Assembly (NCBI GenBank): GCA_002696315.1
Contig: NZRR01000043.1
Span: 44,555 to 82,474 of the forward strand
Direction: 5' to 3'
Source of the DNA: Methanobacteriota archaeon
GTDB taxonomy: Archaea > Thermoplasmatota > Poseidoniia > Poseidoniales > Poseidoniaceae
DNA length: 37,920 nucleotides
How positions within the stretch are numbered: the first letter of the stretch is position 1; each line of letters opens with the position of its first letter. Made by a program: the position numbers and the translations under genes. The notes beneath the pieces were generated by a model. That model ran no database searches. It was not told the DNA's origin and was given only the letters and a program-made list of their open reading frames with translations. Shown here piece by piece: positions 15,033-23,177 of this stretch.

Positions 15033-15048
15033 TTTAGGCGTGACTAAA
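15033..15048. promoter_or_regulatory. DtxR/IdeR-like operator, upstream copy
   Basis: TTTAGGCGTGACTAAA keeps the left half-site TTTAGG and, with one change, the right half-site. It ends just before the TATA box, where it could cover the BRE. The matching downstream copy makes chance less likely. The family assignment is from the TTAGG-N4-CCTAA core known for iron-dependent DtxR/IdeR repressors. Confidence 0.65.
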
Positions 15049-15050
15049 CA

Positions 15051-15059
15051 TTATATATG
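15051..15059 (+). promoter_or_regulatory. TATA box of the transferrin-like operon
   Basis: TTATATATG predicts transcription start near 15080, which falls inside the second operator. The start codon at 15105 has its own ribosome site GGTGA (15096-15100). Confidence 0.55.
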
Positions 15060-15077
15060 TGAGGCCAACCAGATAAG

Positions 15078-15093
15078 TTTAGGCGTACCTAAA
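15078..15093. promoter_or_regulatory. DtxR/IdeR-like operator, perfect inverted repeat at the transcription start
   Basis: TTTAGGCGTACCTAAA is a perfect TTTAGG-N4-CCTAAA inverted repeat, 45 bases from the upstream copy. It would overlap the predicted transcription start, so a metal-loaded repressor bound here would block initiation. It is the main evidence that the operon answers to iron or manganese rather than to phosphorus. Confidence 0.72.
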
Positions 15094-15104: not shown

Positions 15105-17282
15105 ATGAAAATTGAAAAAAGCATATTAATGATAATTTTAATCGTGTGTTCTGTTTTTGCAGGATGTACAGGAACAACGGACGAGACAACAGATACAACA
15201 GATACAACAGTTACAGATGGTAGCGATACTACAGATACAACTAACACAACTGATACTGTAACGGAACTACCTCAATTAAAAATTGCATATTCAGTACAAG
15301 ATGATTATGAAAATATTGATGAAAATCCACAACGTTTAGCAGATTATCTTGGAACTAAATTAAACATGGATGTATCATTATATCCAATAGATTCCGATGG
15401 AGCAGCATTGGAAGCTTTAAGATTTGGAAATGCACATTTAGCATTTTTAGACGGAGGTAGTGCATGGGTCGGTTGGCAACAATATGATCTTGAAGTTATG
15501 GCAGCAGATGAAAAATCAGATGGCCGTACTCATTACAGTGCACATGCATGGGTAAAAGCAGATAGTGAAATGGCCGCAGCACATCTAGATGATGATCCAA
15601 TTACTGATCCATTCTCATTACTTGAGGGCAAAACATCATGTCATACAGGCTGGTTAAAATCTGCAGGTATGTTAATGCCGATGGGATATTTGATCGGTCA
15701 TGGCTACGCTAATGTGGTTGGTGACGCAAATGATATTGAAACATTAAGAAACACAGTACTCAATTACTTTAATGATGATGCTTCAATTCCTGAATCTGGA
15801 ACACCATATTATGGATATGGTGGAGCATTAAAATGCCTATCAGATGGAACTGGTGATGTAGCATTTGCAAAAGATAGCACAGTAACTTCTTATTGTGATA
15901 ATGAAGATTCTACAGAGAACGAAGATTGGTGTTTAGCAATAGATCAATACGTTGCACTACCAGAATTCGGTAAATCTCCAAGCCACCCAGTAATGTACAA
16001 TCCTCAATTTATGGATGAAGAATTAGTAAATAAAGTTACTACAGCCTTAGTTGAAATGAAAAATGAAGCGGATGGAGAAGCAATACTATCAGATGTTCTA
16101 AGTACTACAGCAATTGTAGAAACAGATACAGAAACACACCTAGGAAGTTATTCTGCAGTATTATCTTCAATACCTGGAATTTCAGCATACTATAATGACA
16201 AATATACAATCAATGATTTAATGACGCCGACAATTGATAATGTACGTATTGCGTATGAGGTTAAGGATGATTACGAGAATCCCGATGAAAACCCACAAAT
16301 TTTAGCGGACTATTTAGCAGAAAAATTAGGAGTAGATGTCACATTATACCCAGTTACTTCTGAGGGCGCAATGATTGAAGCGTTAAGATTTGGAAATGCA
16401 GACATTGGATTTATGGATGGGGGAGCAGCTTGGATTGGTTGGAAATACTATGGATTGGCTACAATGGCAGCGGATCAAAAATCAGATGGTAGGACACATT
16501 ATGAAGCTCATGCATGGGTAAAAGCAGATAGTGAAATGGCCGCAGCACATCTAGATGATGATCCAACAACAGATCCTTTCGCACTACTAGAAGGAAAAAC
16601 TTCCTGCCATACAGGCTGGTTAAAATCTGCAGGTATGTTGTTACCAATGGGTTATTTGATTGGTAATGGGTACGCACCAGTAATTGGAGATGCGAATGAT
16701 ATAGAATCATTAAGAAATACTATTCTTAATTATTTCAGTGATGATGCTTCAATTCCTGAATCTGGAACACCATATTATGGATATGGTGGAGCATTAAAAT
16801 GTCTATCAGATGGAACTGGCGATGTTGCATTTGCAAAAGATAGTACAGTAGCTTCTTATTGTGACAATGAAGATTCAACAGAGAACGAAGATTGGTGTTT
16901 AGAGATGGATCAATATATTCCATTACCTGCATTTGGTAAGGCTCCAAGTCACCCAGTAATGTATAATCCAGAAACTCTTGATTTACAAACAAGAACAGCG
17001 ATTCTTAATGCCTTACTTTCAATGAATAATGAAATGTATGTTGAAAACTACACAGTAATGGGCAATTCGTATACAGGGTGCTATGATATCTCTGTACACG
17101 AAGTTGATTCAGAATCACCTAAGAATACTTGTGGAGATGAAATTTTGTTAAATGTATTAAACACACCGGGAATAGTACTAGCAACATCTCAACAACATCT
17201 CGGAAGTTATTCAGACTTGATATCAAATATCCCAGGAATTTCTACTTACTTTGAAAACAAGTATGAAATAATATCTAGTTAG
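15105..17282 (+). CDS. Bilobal transferrin-like lipoprotein (PhnD-related solute-binding protein)
   Basis: A 725-residue exported protein: lipoprotein signal with lipobox FAGC (Cys21), a Thr/Asp-rich linker (22-54), then two homologous lobes (about 56-370 and 378-725). Each lobe starts like PhnD but carries transferrin iron-site motifs in order. Lobe 1 has Asp116 (FLDGG), Tyr144 (HYSAHAWVK), Thr181 in SCHT, Lys185 where transferrin has Arg, Tyr238 (YYGYGGALKCL) and His294 (SPSH). Lobe 2 has Asp438, Tyr466, Thr503, Lys507, Tyr560 and His616. Cysteines 179/244 and 264/276 (501/566 and 586/598) match two conserved transferrin disulfides. Lobe 2 also has an insertion (about 641-680) with an extra pair, Cys659/Cys676. 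I infer ferric iron binding with carbonate and delivery to the ABC importer encoded next. A plain PhnD phosphonate-binding role is the alternative. Confidence 0.85.
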   Translation: MKIEKSILMIILIVCSVFAGCTGTTDETTDTTDTTVTDGSDTTDTTNTTDTVTELPQLKIAYSVQDDYENIDENPQRLADYLGTKLNMDVSLYPIDSDGAALEALRFGNAHLAFLDGGSAWVGWQQYDLEVMAADEKSDGRTHYSAHAWVKADSEMAAAHLDDDPITDPFSLLEGKTSCHTGWLKSAGMLMPMGYLIGHGYANVVGDANDIETLRNTVLNYFNDDASIPESGTPYYGYGGALKCLSDGTGDVAFAKDSTVTSYCDNEDSTENEDWCLAIDQYVALPEFGKSPSHPVMYNPQFMDEELVNKVTTALVEMKNEADGEAILSDVLSTTAIVETDTETHLGSYSAVLSSIPGISAYYNDKYTINDLMTPTIDNVRIAYEVKDDYENPDENPQILADYLAEKLGVDVTLYPVTSEGAMIEALRFGNADIGFMDGGAAWIGWKYYGLATMAADQKSDGRTHYEAHAWVKADSEMAAAHLDDDPTTDPFALLEGKTSCHTGWLKSAGMLLPMGYLIGNGYAPVIGDANDIESLRNTILNYFSDDASIPESGTPYYGYGGALKCLSDGTGDVAFAKDSTVASYCDNEDSTENEDWCLEMDQYIPLPAFGKAPSHPVMYNPETLDLQTRTAILNALLSMNNEMYVENYTVMGNSYTGCYDISVHEVDSESPKNTCGDEILLNVLNTPGIVLATSQQHLGSYSDLISNIPGISTYFENKYEIISS
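15543..15600 (+). repeat. 58-bp block identical between lobe 1 and lobe 2 (copy 1)
   Basis: This block is identical base for base to 16509-16566. It encodes AHAWVKADSEMAAAHLDDDP just after the second iron-ligand tyrosine. Perfect identity, including third codon positions, inside an otherwise diverged duplication suggests gene conversion or very recent exchange. Confidence 0.85.
15773..15835 (+). repeat. 63-bp block identical between lobe 1 and lobe 2 (copy 1)
   Basis: This block is identical base for base to 16739-16801. It encodes DDASIPESGTPYYGYGGALK and spans the third iron ligand (Tyr238 / Tyr560). Confidence 0.85.
16509..16566 (+). repeat. 58-bp block identical between lobes (copy 2)
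   Basis: Second copy of the block at 15543-15600, 966 bases downstream, in lobe 2. Confidence 0.85.
16739..16801 (+). repeat. 63-bp block identical between lobes (copy 2)
   Basis: Second copy of the block at 15773-15835. It is also 966 bases downstream, so the lobes stay in register with no net indel between the two blocks. Confidence 0.85.
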
Positions 17283-17305: not shown

Positions 17306-18019
17306 ATTCAGAATACGAAAGGAAAAATTCCCCTTGTCCAACTTCATGAATTAGTGGTGGGGTATAACACCAAAGAACCACTTATTAATATAGATGAATT
17401 TCAGATATTTTCAGGTGAAGTTGTAGTACTTACTGGAGTATCGGGGATAGGTAAAACAACCTTGTTAAAAACAATCGCAGGCTTAGTCAAACCCATTAAT
17501 GGAACAGTAAACGTTTGTGATAGAAAGCTACCGTCTAAACCCAAAAGGGGAGAGATCGGGTATATCCCTCAAAGTCTGGGATTAGTTAGACATGCTAGTG
17601 TGATACATAATGTAATGATAGGTGCTAATGCAGGAATGAAAAAATTTTGGAACCCTATTCCTTCATTATTAGCCAAAGATGTGGCAGACAAGGCGATATC
17701 AGCCATGGATTTAACAAGCCATCAATATCGCTTAATTAGAAAATTATCAGGGGGCCAACAAAGAAGAGTTGCTACCGCACGAACACTTGCTCAAAGACCA
17801 AGATTAATTCTAGCGGACGAATTCTTAAGTGAATTAGATGATAATACAAAAGAGAAAGTACTTTCTGAAGTATTGAAGTATGTTCAAGAAGAAAATGCTG
17901 CTTTAGTTGTGATAGAACACGATATTAAGAGAGCAAGAGAAATGGGAGATAGAATATTTTTAATTAAGGAAAGAAAACTTATTGAAATAGATAAAAATTC
18001 AATTTCGGAGGAAGAATGA
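17306..18019 (+). CDS. ABC transporter ATPase, PhnC-like (putative iron importer)
   Basis: This is the nucleotide-binding subunit of the importer fed by the transferrin-like lipoprotein. Counting from GTG 17354, Walker A is GVSGIGKTT (28-36), the Q-loop is IPQSLGL with Gln73, the signature is LSGGQQRR (131-138), Walker B is LILADEF (151-157) and the H-loop is VIEHD. The GTG start would remove the usual first strand. The upstream frame reads NTKGKIPLVQLHELVVGYN with no ATG, GTG or TTG, but an ATT at 17306 has GGGGG (17294-17298) before it. I therefore extend to 17306 (237 aa) while treating the rare start as inferred. The gap to the lipoprotein is 23 bases, and the stop overlaps the permease start by 4. 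Confidence 0.85.
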   Translation: MQNTKGKIPLVQLHELVVGYNTKEPLINIDEFQIFSGEVVVLTGVSGIGKTTLLKTIAGLVKPINGTVNVCDRKLPSKPKRGEIGYIPQSLGLVRHASVIHNVMIGANAGMKKFWNPIPSLLAKDVADKAISAMDLTSHQYRLIRKLSGGQQRRVATARTLAQRPRLILADEFLSELDDNTKEKVLSEVLKYVQEENAALVVIEHDIKRAREMGDRIFLIKERKLIEIDKNSISEEE

Positions 18020-18933
18020 TGCCTATTTTTCAAAATTATTATTTTAAAATGAGTAAATTAATTTTATTTTTTATTTTAATAACAATATTAACGTTAACAA
18101 CATTTAGTAATTTAGTAGACGGGGATTGGGGATCATTAGAAAACAGTCTTGCAAATTTGTCTACCTTTTTTTATGAATCATTATGGCCACCAAATTGGAA
18201 AGTAATTGAGCCCCAAGCATATCCTGTTTGTACTGAGATTCCTTTGTTAGATTTTAGATGTTCTACAGCCTGGATTGGAATGACAGAAACAATAAAAATT
18301 GCCTTTGTATCAACGATATTTGGAATGATTTTATCTATGCCAATTTCATTATTGGCAGCAAGAAATTTAAATCCGATTTGGATTTCATATCCGGCCAGAA
18401 TTATTCTTGCGGCGTTTAGATCTTTACCTAGTATAATTTGGGCAATTTTATTTGTAATTTTAATTGGATTTGGACCTGTAGCAGGAACTCTCGCTATGAC
18501 ATTTTATACAGTGGGATATCTAGGAAAATTGCAATATGAATCAATTGAGGGAATCTCGAGAGAACCATTGGATGCTGCAGATGTAATGGGGCTAAATAAA
18601 ATTGAAAAGGCATATACAGTTGTAATTCCAGAATCAGCAAACAATTTAATTTCTCAATTAATTTTTATGTTTGAATATAATGTTAGACATGGTACTGTAA
18701 TCGGTATTGTTGGAGCAGGTGGAATTGGATACTACATCAATTTATATTTGAAATTTTTACAATATGATAAAGTCATTGCATATCTAATAATTATATTCAT
18801 AACTGTAGTAATTATTGATTTAATATCTATTTATGCAAGGTCATTTTTCACTGAAAAAGAAAATCTGAAACGGCCAACTTGGAAAGAAATCTTCATTCCA
18901 GAATTTTTGTTTTCAAAATATAAAAAAGAATAA
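18016..18933 (+). CDS. ABC transporter permease, PhnE-like (putative iron importer)
   Basis: A 305-residue inner membrane permease of the PhnE/BPD-type family with about six helices: an N-terminal helix at about 13-33, then a cluster from about 90 to 275. The coupling EAA loop is recognisable as EPLDAADVMGLNKIEKAY near 180-197, followed by IVGAGGIGYYI typical of PhnE proteins. It overlaps the ATPase gene by four bases (ATGA-type coupling). A periplasm-facing insert (about 35-85) with two cysteines (VCTEIP, DFRCST) precedes the core and may dock the binding protein; this is a guess. By family it would import phosphonate or phosphite; by context, iron. Confidence 0.88.
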   Translation: MMPIFQNYYFKMSKLILFFILITILTLTTFSNLVDGDWGSLENSLANLSTFFYESLWPPNWKVIEPQAYPVCTEIPLLDFRCSTAWIGMTETIKIAFVSTIFGMILSMPISLLAARNLNPIWISYPARIILAAFRSLPSIIWAILFVILIGFGPVAGTLAMTFYTVGYLGKLQYESIEGISREPLDAADVMGLNKIEKAYTVVIPESANNLISQLIFMFEYNVRHGTVIGIVGAGGIGYYINLYLKFLQYDKVIAYLIIIFITVVIIDLISIYARSFFTEKENLKRPTWKEIFIPEFLFSKYKKE

Positions 18934-19918: not shown

Positions 19919-22048
19919 TTAGTTGTAAACAATTGGTAAGAAGGCATTTGCAGCAGCCTCACAAGCATTTGCAACATCATCCATTCGTTGTAAGACACGA
20001 TACATATGCATTGCAGCCAATGGGTGATCCTCTCCATTACTAAACACAAATGCCGCAGCAGTAGCTTCAGAAATATCAGCCTCATGCTCTTTTAAGTTAA
20101 CTTTTCTAATCATCTCCAGGAGTTCATTTTTTCCAGATTTGGTATAACCAGATAAGGTAATATCTCTAAGGATTTCAACAGTATCTTCGTATGCAGCAAC
20201 GGTTTCAGCCACAGATAAAGCCATCTTCTTAAGCAAATCTCTGGCTTCATCATTTTCATATAACTCTCTAAAGGAAAGCTGTTCCGCAACATTTTGTGCA
20301 TAATCAGCAATCCTATCTTGACGTGTAAGCATATGTAAGAAAGCCTCACTACCAATGAGTAGTTTCCATTCACGACTACCTACTTTTTCACGTAAGGCCG
20401 ACTTTAAATTATCAGCGGCTAATTCTGCTTCAATAGTGGCTTTAATTTCTGCCGTAGCATCCTTTCCAGATGCTGCCCTATTGACTGCTTCTAACATATG
20501 ATTAACAGTAACTTCAACCGCTTCTGCGTGTTTGTGAAACAACTCAAAGACAGTTGGTGAGATTTGAGTTTTTGACTCAACACCCCCAACATCAGCTAAG
20601 GCATCTTCCACATATATTTCATCATCTTTTGTTTTCCACAATACATAAATTACTGCAACGAAAGCAAGAGGAATAATTAAACTAATTCTTGATGGATTTG
20701 AACCACTGGCAATGTATATGGCAACCGCTCCAAAAGCAGCGGCGGGTAAACTAGCGACCCAAGAAGCAGCAATCTTCCCAAATACACGGAAATCAACCGC
20801 TTTAGCTCCCCCAGCAAGCCCAACCCCAACTACGGCACCAACTAGTGTATGAGTAGTTGATACAGGCACAGCCAAAAAGGGCATTGAAAACATTAGAATT
20901 ACTGTTGCAGCCCCAAATTCAGCAGCAAACCCCCGGGTTGGCGTAATGTCTGTAATTTTTTTACCAATAGTTTCCATAACTCGATACCCCCAAGTCATTA
21001 CACCAATGGCAATACCAGCAGAACCAAGTAGAACTAGCCATAAAGGAATGTCTACTTTGGCCGACAACTCCCCCCCACTTGATAAGATATCATACACAGC
21101 AGCCATAGGCCCAATTGCATTTGATCGGTCATTTGCACCATGCGCAAAGGCTACATAGGCAGCAGTAATTATTTGTAGCCAAACAAAGATACGTTCAACC
21201 CCAGTAAAACCCCCTCTTTCATTATTGAAGTCATATTTACGTAAAACCCACCATAAAATTATACTTGATATAGTACCAATAGCCAATGCAAGTATTAAAC
21301 TGTTAATTGGAAACCAGGCATTTTCTGCCCAAGGATTAAACACCCCATTTTCTTTTACAGGCAACCAATCATACTTATTTTCAATCCAACCATTTTCTGC
21401 AGCTCTCGAAAAGAAACCTTTCAATGCTTTAAATTGTAAAGCAAGACCCAATACAAAGAATGTAGGTAGTGCTAATATTGGTGCCAACCATTTAGATCTT
21501 TCAACAGGATTATCTGCATCAAGAATGGCCATACGAACAACAGTAAATGATAGGAAAGCGATAATCCCCCCCATTAAAGGACTTGCAACCCAAGACATCA
21601 CAACCTTTTGAACTACTCCCCAATCAATTAGAGAGGTACTATGTTGTACTTCAAGAATTAAGCCAACACCAAGGATACCCCCAATTATTGAGTGGGTAGT
21701 CGATACAGGTAGCCCAAACCTTGTTGCAATCGTAAGCCAAACTGCTGCAGCCATCATTGCTGCAATAAAGGCATACATCAAATCATTGGCAAATCCATCA
21801 GGGAGGACTTCATCAAAATCTACCGATAAAATACCTTTTCGAACAGTATCTGTAACAGCATCACCGGCGAAAAATGCACCACTAAATTCGAAGATTGCTG
21901 CAATTATTACAGCCTGTTTGAGAGTTAAAGCACGACTTCCAACAGAAGTTCCCATTGCATTTGCAACATCATTCGCACCGATATTCCATGCCATATAAGC
22001 ACAAACTAATATCGATAGAGCTAGAACTAGCATCATAATTGGTTCCAT
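19919..22048 (-). CDS. Pit-type phosphate transporter fused to a PhoU-like domain
   Basis: A 709-residue protein. Residues 1 to about 490 are an inorganic phosphate permease (PHO4/PitA family) with the two inverted family signatures, NIGANDVANAMGTSVGS near 23-39 and AHGANDRSNAIGPMAA in the second half, each followed by a PVSTTHxxxG loop. After a polar linker, about 510-705 is a helical PhoU-like domain of the DUF47 kind (FELFHKHAEAVEVTVNHML...). It imports phosphate with a cation (probably Na+ in seawater), with the fused domain as a likely gate or sensor. A minus-strand TATA at about 22068-22083 suggests a leaderless mRNA. In most archaea the DUF47 protein is separate. Confidence 0.92.
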   Translation of the reverse strand: MEPIMMLVLALSILVCAYMAWNIGANDVANAMGTSVGSRALTLKQAVIIAAIFEFSGAFFAGDAVTDTVRKGILSVDFDEVLPDGFANDLMYAFIAAMMAAAVWLTIATRFGLPVSTTHSIIGGILGVGLILEVQHSTSLIDWGVVQKVVMSWVASPLMGGIIAFLSFTVVRMAILDADNPVERSKWLAPILALPTFFVLGLALQFKALKGFFSRAAENGWIENKYDWLPVKENGVFNPWAENAWFPINSLILALAIGTISSIILWWVLRKYDFNNERGGFTGVERIFVWLQIITAAYVAFAHGANDRSNAIGPMAAVYDILSSGGELSAKVDIPLWLVLLGSAGIAIGVMTWGYRVMETIGKKITDITPTRGFAAEFGAATVILMFSMPFLAVPVSTTHTLVGAVVGVGLAGGAKAVDFRVFGKIAASWVASLPAAAFGAVAIYIASGSNPSRISLIIPLAFVAVIYVLWKTKDDEIYVEDALADVGGVESKTQISPTVFELFHKHAEAVEVTVNHMLEAVNRAASGKDATAEIKATIEAELAADNLKSALREKVGSREWKLLIGSEAFLHMLTRQDRIADYAQNVAEQLSFRELYENDEARDLLKKMALSVAETVAAYEDTVEILRDITLSGYTKSGKNELLEMIRKVNLKEHEADISEATAAAFVFSNGEDHPLAAMHMYRVLQRMDDVANACEAAANAFLPIVYN

Positions 22049-22067
22049 AATTTTTCGTTAACTAATT

Positions 22068-22110
22068 TAGTATATCATATAGAACTACTATAATCTATAT
22101 AGTTATATTT
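22068..22110. promoter_or_regulatory. Divergent Pit / PhoU promoter with dyad
   Basis: An 82-base gap separates the two start codons. TATA-like stretches lie near 22068-22083 (for pit) and 22096-22110 (for the regulator), each about 26 bases from its start codon. Between and over them AACTACTATA (22083-22092) and TATATAGTT (22096-22104) form an imperfect inverted repeat. This could be the site at which the divergent AbrB-PhoU protein controls both genes; that is inference. Confidence 0.45.
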
Positions 22111-22130
22111 AGAATCATCATAGGGTATAC

Positions 22131-23177
22131 ATGGCGAAACAAAGTGGAAATAAAGACGTCAGAAAATTACAACTTACAGGAGGGGCAACTTATACCCTCA
22201 GTGTACCCAAAACTTGGGTCAAGCATCACAATCTTAAATCAAGAGACGGAATTCAGGTTGATTGGCGCCCTTCCGGAGCTCTAAGATTAACCCCTTTCAA
22301 CACCATAGAGCAGATTAAAAAAATCACATTAAGCACAAGAAAAATTCCCGAAGGGGCCCTTTTGGATCATTTAATGGGGGCATACCTTAGTGGAACTGAT
22401 CGGATAAAAATTAATTTCACATCGAAAGAGAATTCAAAAATAAAGAAAATTATTCGAATCTTTCAAAGGTCGACGCGTGGATTTGAAATTGAAGAAGAAT
22501 TAGATGAAAGTATTACATTAATTACTCTAATCAATGCTGGTGAATTACCAATGAGGAGCAGCCTTAATCAAATGTACATGCAATTAAATTCACTTATACG
22601 TGATATATTAGATGTAATTTCTGGTGAAGACAAATCACTTATTGAAGATTATGAGGAAAGAGAAAGAGAAATTGACAGCCTGAGGTTTTTTATTGAAAGA
22701 CAGGCAGGAATTGTATTAGATTCATACAAGGTTGCCGAGCGACTAAATATTGGGCGCAGACAAGCCGTAGAATATTCAAATTTAGCACGGGCATTGGAAA
22801 GGATGGCAGATCATACAAACCAGATGGCACATCTCGTGCTTGAAGATAATGGCCAGACCAAATTATCTTTTGATACTCCACCCCTCAATCAAATACCAAT
22901 TTGGCAAGGAGCATTACGAACTTTAATGATAAACATTAGAACTAATAATGGAGAAGAAATAGAAGTCGCCAGAAACTCATTGAAATCAGCACAGAAGATT
23001 CTAAAACAACACGAGAGAAGTCTTTGGTCTGGTAGAAAAGATGCGAATAAACTTTTGTTTGAGGACCATATCTCAGAATCCATCCGCCGTTTATGTGCAT
23101 ATACACGTGACTTTGGGGAAATTTTACTCAATATCCTTACTTATGATAGTATTATCTTTGATAAAAGAAATAATTAA
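22131..23177 (+). CDS. Phosphate-uptake regulator: AbrB-type DNA-binding domain plus PhoU domain
   Basis: A 348-residue archaeal PhoU-type regulator. Residues 4-55 are a SpoVT/AbrB swapped-hairpin DNA-binding domain (VRKLQLTGGATYTLSVPKTW), after which two helical PhoU-like three-helix bundles run from about 130 to 340 with repeated E/D-rich helices. In archaea this architecture goes with phosphate transport control, in contrast to bacterial PhoU, which has no DNA-binding part. It is divergent from the pit-PhoU fusion, so direct repression of that gene under phosphate excess is likely. The ATG is probably leaderless. Confidence 0.9.
   Translation: MAKQSGNKDVRKLQLTGGATYTLSVPKTWVKHHNLKSRDGIQVDWRPSGALRLTPFNTIEQIKKITLSTRKIPEGALLDHLMGAYLSGTDRIKINFTSKENSKIKKIIRIFQRSTRGFEIEEELDESITLITLINAGELPMRSSLNQMYMQLNSLIRDILDVISGEDKSLIEDYEEREREIDSLRFFIERQAGIVLDSYKVAERLNIGRRQAVEYSNLARALERMADHTNQMAHLVLEDNGQTKLSFDTPPLNQIPIWQGALRTLMINIRTNNGEEIEVARNSLKSAQKILKQHERSLWSGRKDANKLLFEDHISESIRRLCAYTRDFGEILLNILTYDSIIFDKRNN

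Follow-up and report, generated by a model that had tools for sequence, protein, structure and literature searches.

Two palindromes that bracket the promoter of a transferrin-like ABC operon in a Poseidoniales archaeon are very probably operators of the genome's own DtxR/IdeR-family metalloregulator, which would gate the operon as a transferrin-type Fe(III) uptake system. Since the same switch stands before many iron genes in relatives, iron is most likely both what controls this operon and what it imports, although it resembles an operon for phosphonate uptake. Judged from sequence comparison, the operator pair of the window (the whole stretch of DNA analysed, 37,920 nucleotides) is real and conserved. 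The type of site is familiar, whereas the lineage is new for it, as is the arrangement of single-dimer sites in pairs, and the operon that follows is an unusual transferrin-ABC one.

The probable operator pair at the operon promoter

The upstream putative operator, TTTAGGCGTGACTAAA (15033..15048, + strand), starts 4 bp past the moeA stop, carries one mismatch to the motif and ends 2 bp before the TATA-like element TTATATATG (15051..15059, + strand). This element lies between both operators, the downstream one being the putative site TTTAGGCGTACCTAAA (15078..15093, + strand) with perfect 6-bp arms (TTTAGG-N4-CCTAAA). The downstream operator probably overlies the transcription start, whose predicted location is placed from the distance to the TATA-like element. 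Two palindromes and a TATA-like stretch had been claimed in the original prediction, and all of them are present at these coordinates. The downstream site had also been called a perfect inverted repeat, which is true only for the 6-bp arms because the centre, CGTA, is not self-complementary. The attribution of the TTAGG-N4-CCTAA core to the DtxR/IdeR type stands, the core being exact in the downstream site and one mismatch away in the upstream one, and can be refined to the single-dimer form.

In the window, one match without mismatches is found against 0.03 expected from shuffles, and a search with up to one mismatch returns exactly the two operators against 0.21 expected, a count of two being reached in 3 of 100 shuffles; with up to two mismatches there is no enrichment (5 matches, 3.2 expected). 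The whole assembly (1.71 Mb, 80.6% complete) holds 4 perfect sites versus 1 for the reversed pattern and 0.20 expected from base composition. With up to one mismatch, 9 genomic sites compare with 25 for the reversed control, so that the count alone gives no enrichment, and the 14-bp core is hardly enriched (6 versus 4 for the control). Because at one mismatch or with the 14-bp core the counts barely exceed or fall below those of the controls, it is position and not count that tells real sites from chance ones. Site counting at one or two mismatches, in window or genome, was dropped for this lack of enrichment and replaced by perfect sites and their position.

Recurrence at homologous promoters was assessed with 30 homologues of the transferrin-like protein in named genomes, 28 of which had at least 200 bp of upstream sequence. 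An upstream site (up to one mismatch) is present in 25 of these 28, against an expectation of 0.053 chance sites per upstream window, and 19 have two or more; the placement of the upstream operator is kept as well. The 3 homologues without an upstream site count against the main reading. This set is largely a separate sample, although some of its records are the same contigs as in the order-wide genome set.

The pairing of sites follows preferred distances. Among 80 non-identical site pairs 17-100 bp apart, 40 are spaced at 32-35 bp and 19 at 43-47 bp, with none at 36-42 bp. A TATA-like 6-mer lies between the operators in 55 of 66 twin promoters, compared with a mean of 8 for shuffled spacers, and in 43 of the 66 it starts 0-5 bp past the upstream operator. 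The window promoter belongs to the 45-bp class, with its TATA element 2 bp after the first operator. The two spacing modes differ by about one DNA turn, as would be expected if the two dimers occupied the same side of the helix, an argument weakened by the shared descent of the pairs. A strict 10.5-bp periodicity is not claimed, since periods of 9-12 bp give similar vector lengths and the pairs share ancestry.

The regulon in the genome, the order and beyond

The 4 perfect sites of the genome all precede genes: one stands 22 bp ahead of katG, which is followed on its own strand, after 28 bp, by the DtxR-family gene; one is the downstream operator of the window operon (15078..15093); one lies between the divergent sufC-sufB and a NifU-like gene (named by eye, with no Pfam or NCBIfam match); and one lies 110 bp before nrdB. 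Of two further sites with the 14-bp core only, one is found 23 bp before nuoA and the other inside an ORF (L009), so that 5 of the 6 core sites precede katG, the operon, suf, nrdB or nuoA. Among the 5 one-mismatch sites, one is the upstream operator of the window, one is intergenic (L005) and 3 are inside ORFs. The search for the motif at other iron genes that had been proposed as a check is thus answered by suf, katG, nrdB and nuoA in this genome and by further iron genes in relatives.

Across 145 genomes of the order Poseidoniales, 321 perfect sites are found versus 48 for the reversed pattern, and 124 genomes have at least one. From the order, 175 unique perfect sites were fetched, a sample biased by its collection to transferrin-like loci; to reduce this bias, 23 genomes were used for which every perfect site was fetched (102 sites), a choice that favoured site-rich genomes. 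In this set, 73 of the 102 sites stand before a member of the core iron set, which comprises transferrin-like, Fea1, suf/NifU-like, flavodoxin, ferredoxin, nuoA, nrdB, katG and hemA genes and the PhnC gene of the operon. For 87 sites a recurrent target gene lies within -95 to 250 bp, and 3 are deep within an ORF. Target identities come from Pfam or NCBIfam matches of representatives, which include Fea1 ('low iron-inducible periplasmic protein'), flavodoxin, a 4Fe-4S ferredoxin, glutamyl-tRNA reductase, the ribonucleotide reductase small chain and SufC. Ferrochelatase is a target at one site (L200), and the targets observed within the order include no feo gene.

The first protein of the operon is matched in 131 of the 145 genomes and Fea1 (PF07692) in 42, with archaeal Fea1 genes under the same operators at five loci (L147, L148, L165, L173 and L183); none was detected in the window's own genome, which is 80.6% complete. 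In some genomes Fea1 genes are in tandem with the transferrin-like gene. In at least some of the genomes that lack a site directly upstream of the transferrin-like gene (G096 and G129), this gene is preceded by a codirectional Fea1 gene with operators of its own. Elsewhere, one-lobe transferrin-like versions of about 350-370 aa carry the same operators (e.g. L034, L035 and L049).

Other kinds of genes are found at the sites as well. A family of about 430-560 aa without a Pfam match (L183:2-1672, - strand, and 11 other loci) is divergent from a Fea1 or transferrin-like gene across shared twin operators in 8 of the 23 genomes, and is a candidate unknown iron protein. An M28 peptidase-ZIP metal transporter fusion (L158:1808-4090) is preceded by a site in 7 of the 23, and a small protein rich in Cys and likewise unmatched in Pfam (L196:1361-1687, a 5-locus cluster) has a site upstream in several genomes. 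Some sites precede genes whose iron link is not obvious, such as that of an RfbA-like sugar nucleotidyltransferase (by eye; L150, L152, L154), which in 3 genomes begins 23 bp after a perfect site, and these count against the main reading.

The motif extends beyond the order. Of 5 genomes from the same class, each has perfect sites, with 10 sites versus none for the reversed pattern. At L217 and L220 they separate a DtxR gene from a transferrin-like gene (named by eye) that points the other way; those of L218 fall between DtxR and an FTR1 iron permease, and those of L219 and L221 stand before a DtxR-like gene and before FTR1, respectively. In other families of the phylum, 11 loci were picked from the listed sites, partly for recurrence of the same sequence, and their genes were identified by Pfam for L222, L228 and L231 and by eye for the others. 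Of these sites, 7 stand before feoA and/or feoB and 1 before a DtxR gene, while the remaining 3 have no clear iron gene beside them.

A transferrin-like binding protein in a phosphonate-type operon

The operon begins with a gene for a bilobal transferrin-like/PhnD-fold solute-binding lipoprotein (15105..17282, + strand; PF12974 148 bits, PF00405 141 bits; lipoprotein signal by eye). It continues with a PhnC-like ABC transporter ATPase (17354..18019, + strand; PF00005; TIGR02315 136 bits, below the cut-off of 266) and a PhnE-like ABC transporter permease (18016..18933, + strand; PF00528; TIGR01097 229 bits, above the cut-off of 216.7). Close relatives of the first protein in named genomes belong to Candidatus Poseidoniales, Thalassarchaeaceae or Marine Group II, including single-cell-style AG- isolates, and the records of two relatives bear bacterial names, apparently as mislabelled bins.

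The binding protein passes the PF00405 gathering score (141.2 versus 20.3 bits) and misses the PhnD equivalog TIGR03431 (65 of 261.1 bits) and the wider TIGR01098 (101 of 112.05). In the PDB, lactoferrins match its sequence best (1.1e-27). Both lobes contain the iron ligands of transferrins, Asp, Tyr, Tyr and His, whose positions were placed through alignments to the PDB matches and which include Asp116, Tyr144, Tyr238 and His294. Among 21 homologues they are kept in 21, 21, 20 and 21 for lobe 1 and in 18, 19, 19 and 19 for lobe 2. The anion-site Arg is replaced by Lys in both lobes (Lys185 in lobe 1, in 21 of 21; Lys507 in lobe 2, in 19 of 21), and for this reason the protein is filed as 'transferrin-like' and not as a full transferrin. 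A structure predicted from 21 sequences (pLDDT 79, pTM 0.75) has melanotransferrin as its best Foldseek match; lobe by lobe, ovotransferrin ties with the phosphite/arsenate-type binding proteins ArrX, HtxB and PtxB (Z 22-23). Because of this tie the fold cannot choose between an anion and iron, and the ligands decide.

The phosphate genes nearby are a PHO4/PiT phosphate transporter with a PhoU-type (DUF47) tail (19919-22048) and a divergent PhoU-domain gene (22131-23177), and no DtxR-like site is found at either of them (19919-23177). Since they adjoin the operon and carry no site, the neighbourhood alone would mislead towards phosphate. Excerpts of PMC6336850 list 'transport of phosphonates' in the MGII core genome. 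In 16 genomes, 33 of 33 PF12974 stretches fall within transferrin-like matches, so that this trait may rest on the present gene.

The DtxR-family regulator

A DtxR-family gene in the genome (L040:3023-3694), the presence of which had been named as a check, follows katG in the same orientation after 28 bp, and its product exceeds the cut-offs of both PF01325 (57.8 bits) and PF02742 (81.4 bits). The family occurs in 140 of the 145 genomes of the order. FUR was rejected as the regulator, no FUR-family gene being detected in the own genome, an absence that is not proof because this genome is 80.6% complete.

The residues at the DtxR-type metal-ligand positions are Met13, His84, Glu88, His102, Cys106, Glu109 and His110. 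Met13, Cys106, Glu109 and His110 match the iron-type set Met10/Cys102/Glu105/His106, and the ancillary His/Glu/His are kept too. The order contains two DtxR classes, one MntR-like with Asp/Glu ligands (L090, L092 and L094, n = 3 sequences) and one with Met-or-Glu/Cys (L010 and L096-L118), the Cys102 equivalent being kept in 14 of 14 proteins of the latter. The first ligand, equivalent to Met10, is Glu in some relatives. Since these include the congener G093, so that the genus of the window has both Met and Glu at this position, a reading in terms of iron alone is less secure for the genus as a whole. Neither NCBIfam equivalog is reached, with 74 of 290 bits for the DtxR model NF053665 and 122 of 350 bits for the MntR model NF047407; that the best score, although below cut-off, is that of MntR counts against the iron reading. 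With MntR as the nearest model and Glu in G093, the choice of iron over manganese rests mainly on the regulon. The recognition-helix contacts of IdeR are Ser37, Pro39 and Gln43 in excerpts of PMC8464063, and the own DtxR has Asp, Ser and Met at these positions, a difference that also counts against the main reading.

Autoregulation of dtxR was rejected as a rule for the order, as none of 30 DtxR loci holds a site; the site of the own gene lies beyond katG, outside its locus. The adjacency of katG and dtxR is not kept in G093 or G140, and this, like the lack of sites at the 30 DtxR loci, tells against the main reading. Autoregulation fits only the own katG-dtxR arrangement and the class-mates f3 and L231.

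Proposed mechanism and alternative explanations

Each palindrome would most likely bind one dimer, in the single-dimer TTAGG-N4-CCTAA form. The upstream site adjoins the TATA box on the BRE/TFB side and the downstream site would lie over the transcription start. With ample Fe(II), metal-loaded dimers would block TBP, TFB and RNA polymerase, the first operator closing the BRE/TATA side and the second the start. When iron is short, the dimers would leave and derepressed uptake would follow, the operon products being a transferrin-type Fe(III)-binding lipoprotein and its predicted ABC importer. The sequences themselves establish the motif, the regulon, the regulator gene, the recurrent promoter layout and the ligand residues; from these we infer that a single dimer occupies each site, that the metal is iron, that control is by repression and that the substrate is Fe(III). 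The repressive sign is proposed for the uptake operon and is not extended to the iron-using targets nuoA, katG, nrdB and suf.

The first claim about this operon was that it answers to iron or manganese and not to phosphate, and the comparison of sequences supports it, the PHO4 and PhoU genes having no site and the regulon consisting largely of iron genes. The regulon and the transferrin ligands together narrow 'iron or manganese' towards iron. An MntR-like member of the family acting on manganese-responsive operators, within a manganese or oxidative-stress regulon, is nevertheless conceivable, though improbable: it would accommodate MntR as the closest NCBIfam model, Glu at the Met10 equivalent in several relatives, katG and nrdB as parts of a manganese/peroxide regulon and the M28-ZIP fusion with sites in 7 genomes, but targets such as Fea1, flavodoxin, ferredoxin, FTR1, FeoA-FeoB, Suf, NuoA, HemA and ferrochelatase count against it. 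The Cys102 equivalent in 14 of 14 regulators of the class, next to a separate MntR-like class with Asp/Glu (n = 3), and the transferrin ligands at the window operon speak against manganese as well.

Very unlikely is a phosphonate or phosphite importer under phosphate control, with the palindromes serving something else. The cut-offs of PF12974 and PhnE are passed (the latter also counting against the main reading), PiT and PhoU genes lie 1-4 kb from the operon, 'transport of phosphonates' appears in the published MGII core genome as excerpted from PMC6336850, and the binding protein ties structurally with PtxB and HtxB. Yet the PhnD equivalog is missed (65 versus 261 bits), the best PDB sequence matches are transferrins with conserved ligands, all 33 PF12974 stretches of the 16 genomes are in transferrin-like genes, and the operators that PiT and PhoU lack are the same ones that mark iron genes. 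Chance palindromes in an AT-rich genome would explain why counts at one or two mismatches, in genome or window, do not rise above controls; this explanation has practically no probability left and is already refuted by the comparative data, with sites at 25 of 28 homologues, 321 versus 48 sites in the order and 73 of 102 before core iron genes.

Implications

Beyond the control of the operon by iron, a wider proposal can be made, to which we give about even credence. The locus would hold no genuine phosphonate importer in MGII; the transporter behind the core trait would be a bilobal archaeal transferrin with a PhnCE-type ABC importer, forming one DtxR regulon with Fea1; and paired single-dimer operators, with spacings that differ by about one helical turn, would bracket the TATA box, the promoter being shut by the joint action of two dimers on the same side of the DNA. 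If this is true, transferrin-based iron uptake would be a prokaryotic, ABC-coupled system too, besides its animal and algal forms. Apart from this wider proposal, the analysis provides an iron regulon, its probable switch and the likely main ferric importer for one of the most common uncultured archaea of the surface ocean. The data suggest that the published 'phosphonate transport' trait of MGII was misread, the transporter being recast as a probable iron importer. The operator could serve as a probe to scan any MGII genome for iron-controlled genes, and the defined gene set could be used to score field metatranscriptomes for iron stress. A full-text literature search, judged by titles and abstracts, returned no account of an MGII iron regulon or of an archaeal transferrin.

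Comparison with known systems

As set out in excerpts of PMC8464063, two IdeR dimers bind a 19-bp box (TTAGGTTAGSCTAACCTAA) and a single one binds the half-site TTAGGNNNNCCTAA, for which the nuo promoter of S. erythraea is a natural example, and the 14-bp form has been proposed as the consensus. The Poseidoniales sites are identical to the actinobacterial IdeR/DtxR operators of these excerpts in the core TTAGGNNNNCCTAA, the spacing and the kinds of targets, including nuo, but they commonly occur as pairs around an archaeal TATA box, with spacings of 32-35 or 43-47 bp. The 19-bp two-dimer box has four CCTAA repeats, whereas an extra repeat (at least 4 of 5 bases) is found in 1 of 175 Poseidoniales sites, and the sites are therefore filed as the single-dimer form only. 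In other families of the Thermoplasmatota the same palindrome stands before feoA-feoB and dtxR, whereas the Poseidoniales targets are transferrin-like genes, Fea1, suf, nuo and others.

With transferrins (PF00405), the window protein has in common the two lobes, the Asp/Tyr/Tyr/His ligands and the anion-site Thr. It differs from them in being archaeal and, by prediction, a lipoprotein of the cell surface that delivers to an ABC importer, and by the change of the lobe 1 anion-site Arg to Lys in 21 of 21 homologues. The algal Fea1/phytotransferrin family (PF07692) in turn has its archaeal counterpart in PF07692 proteins under the same operators.
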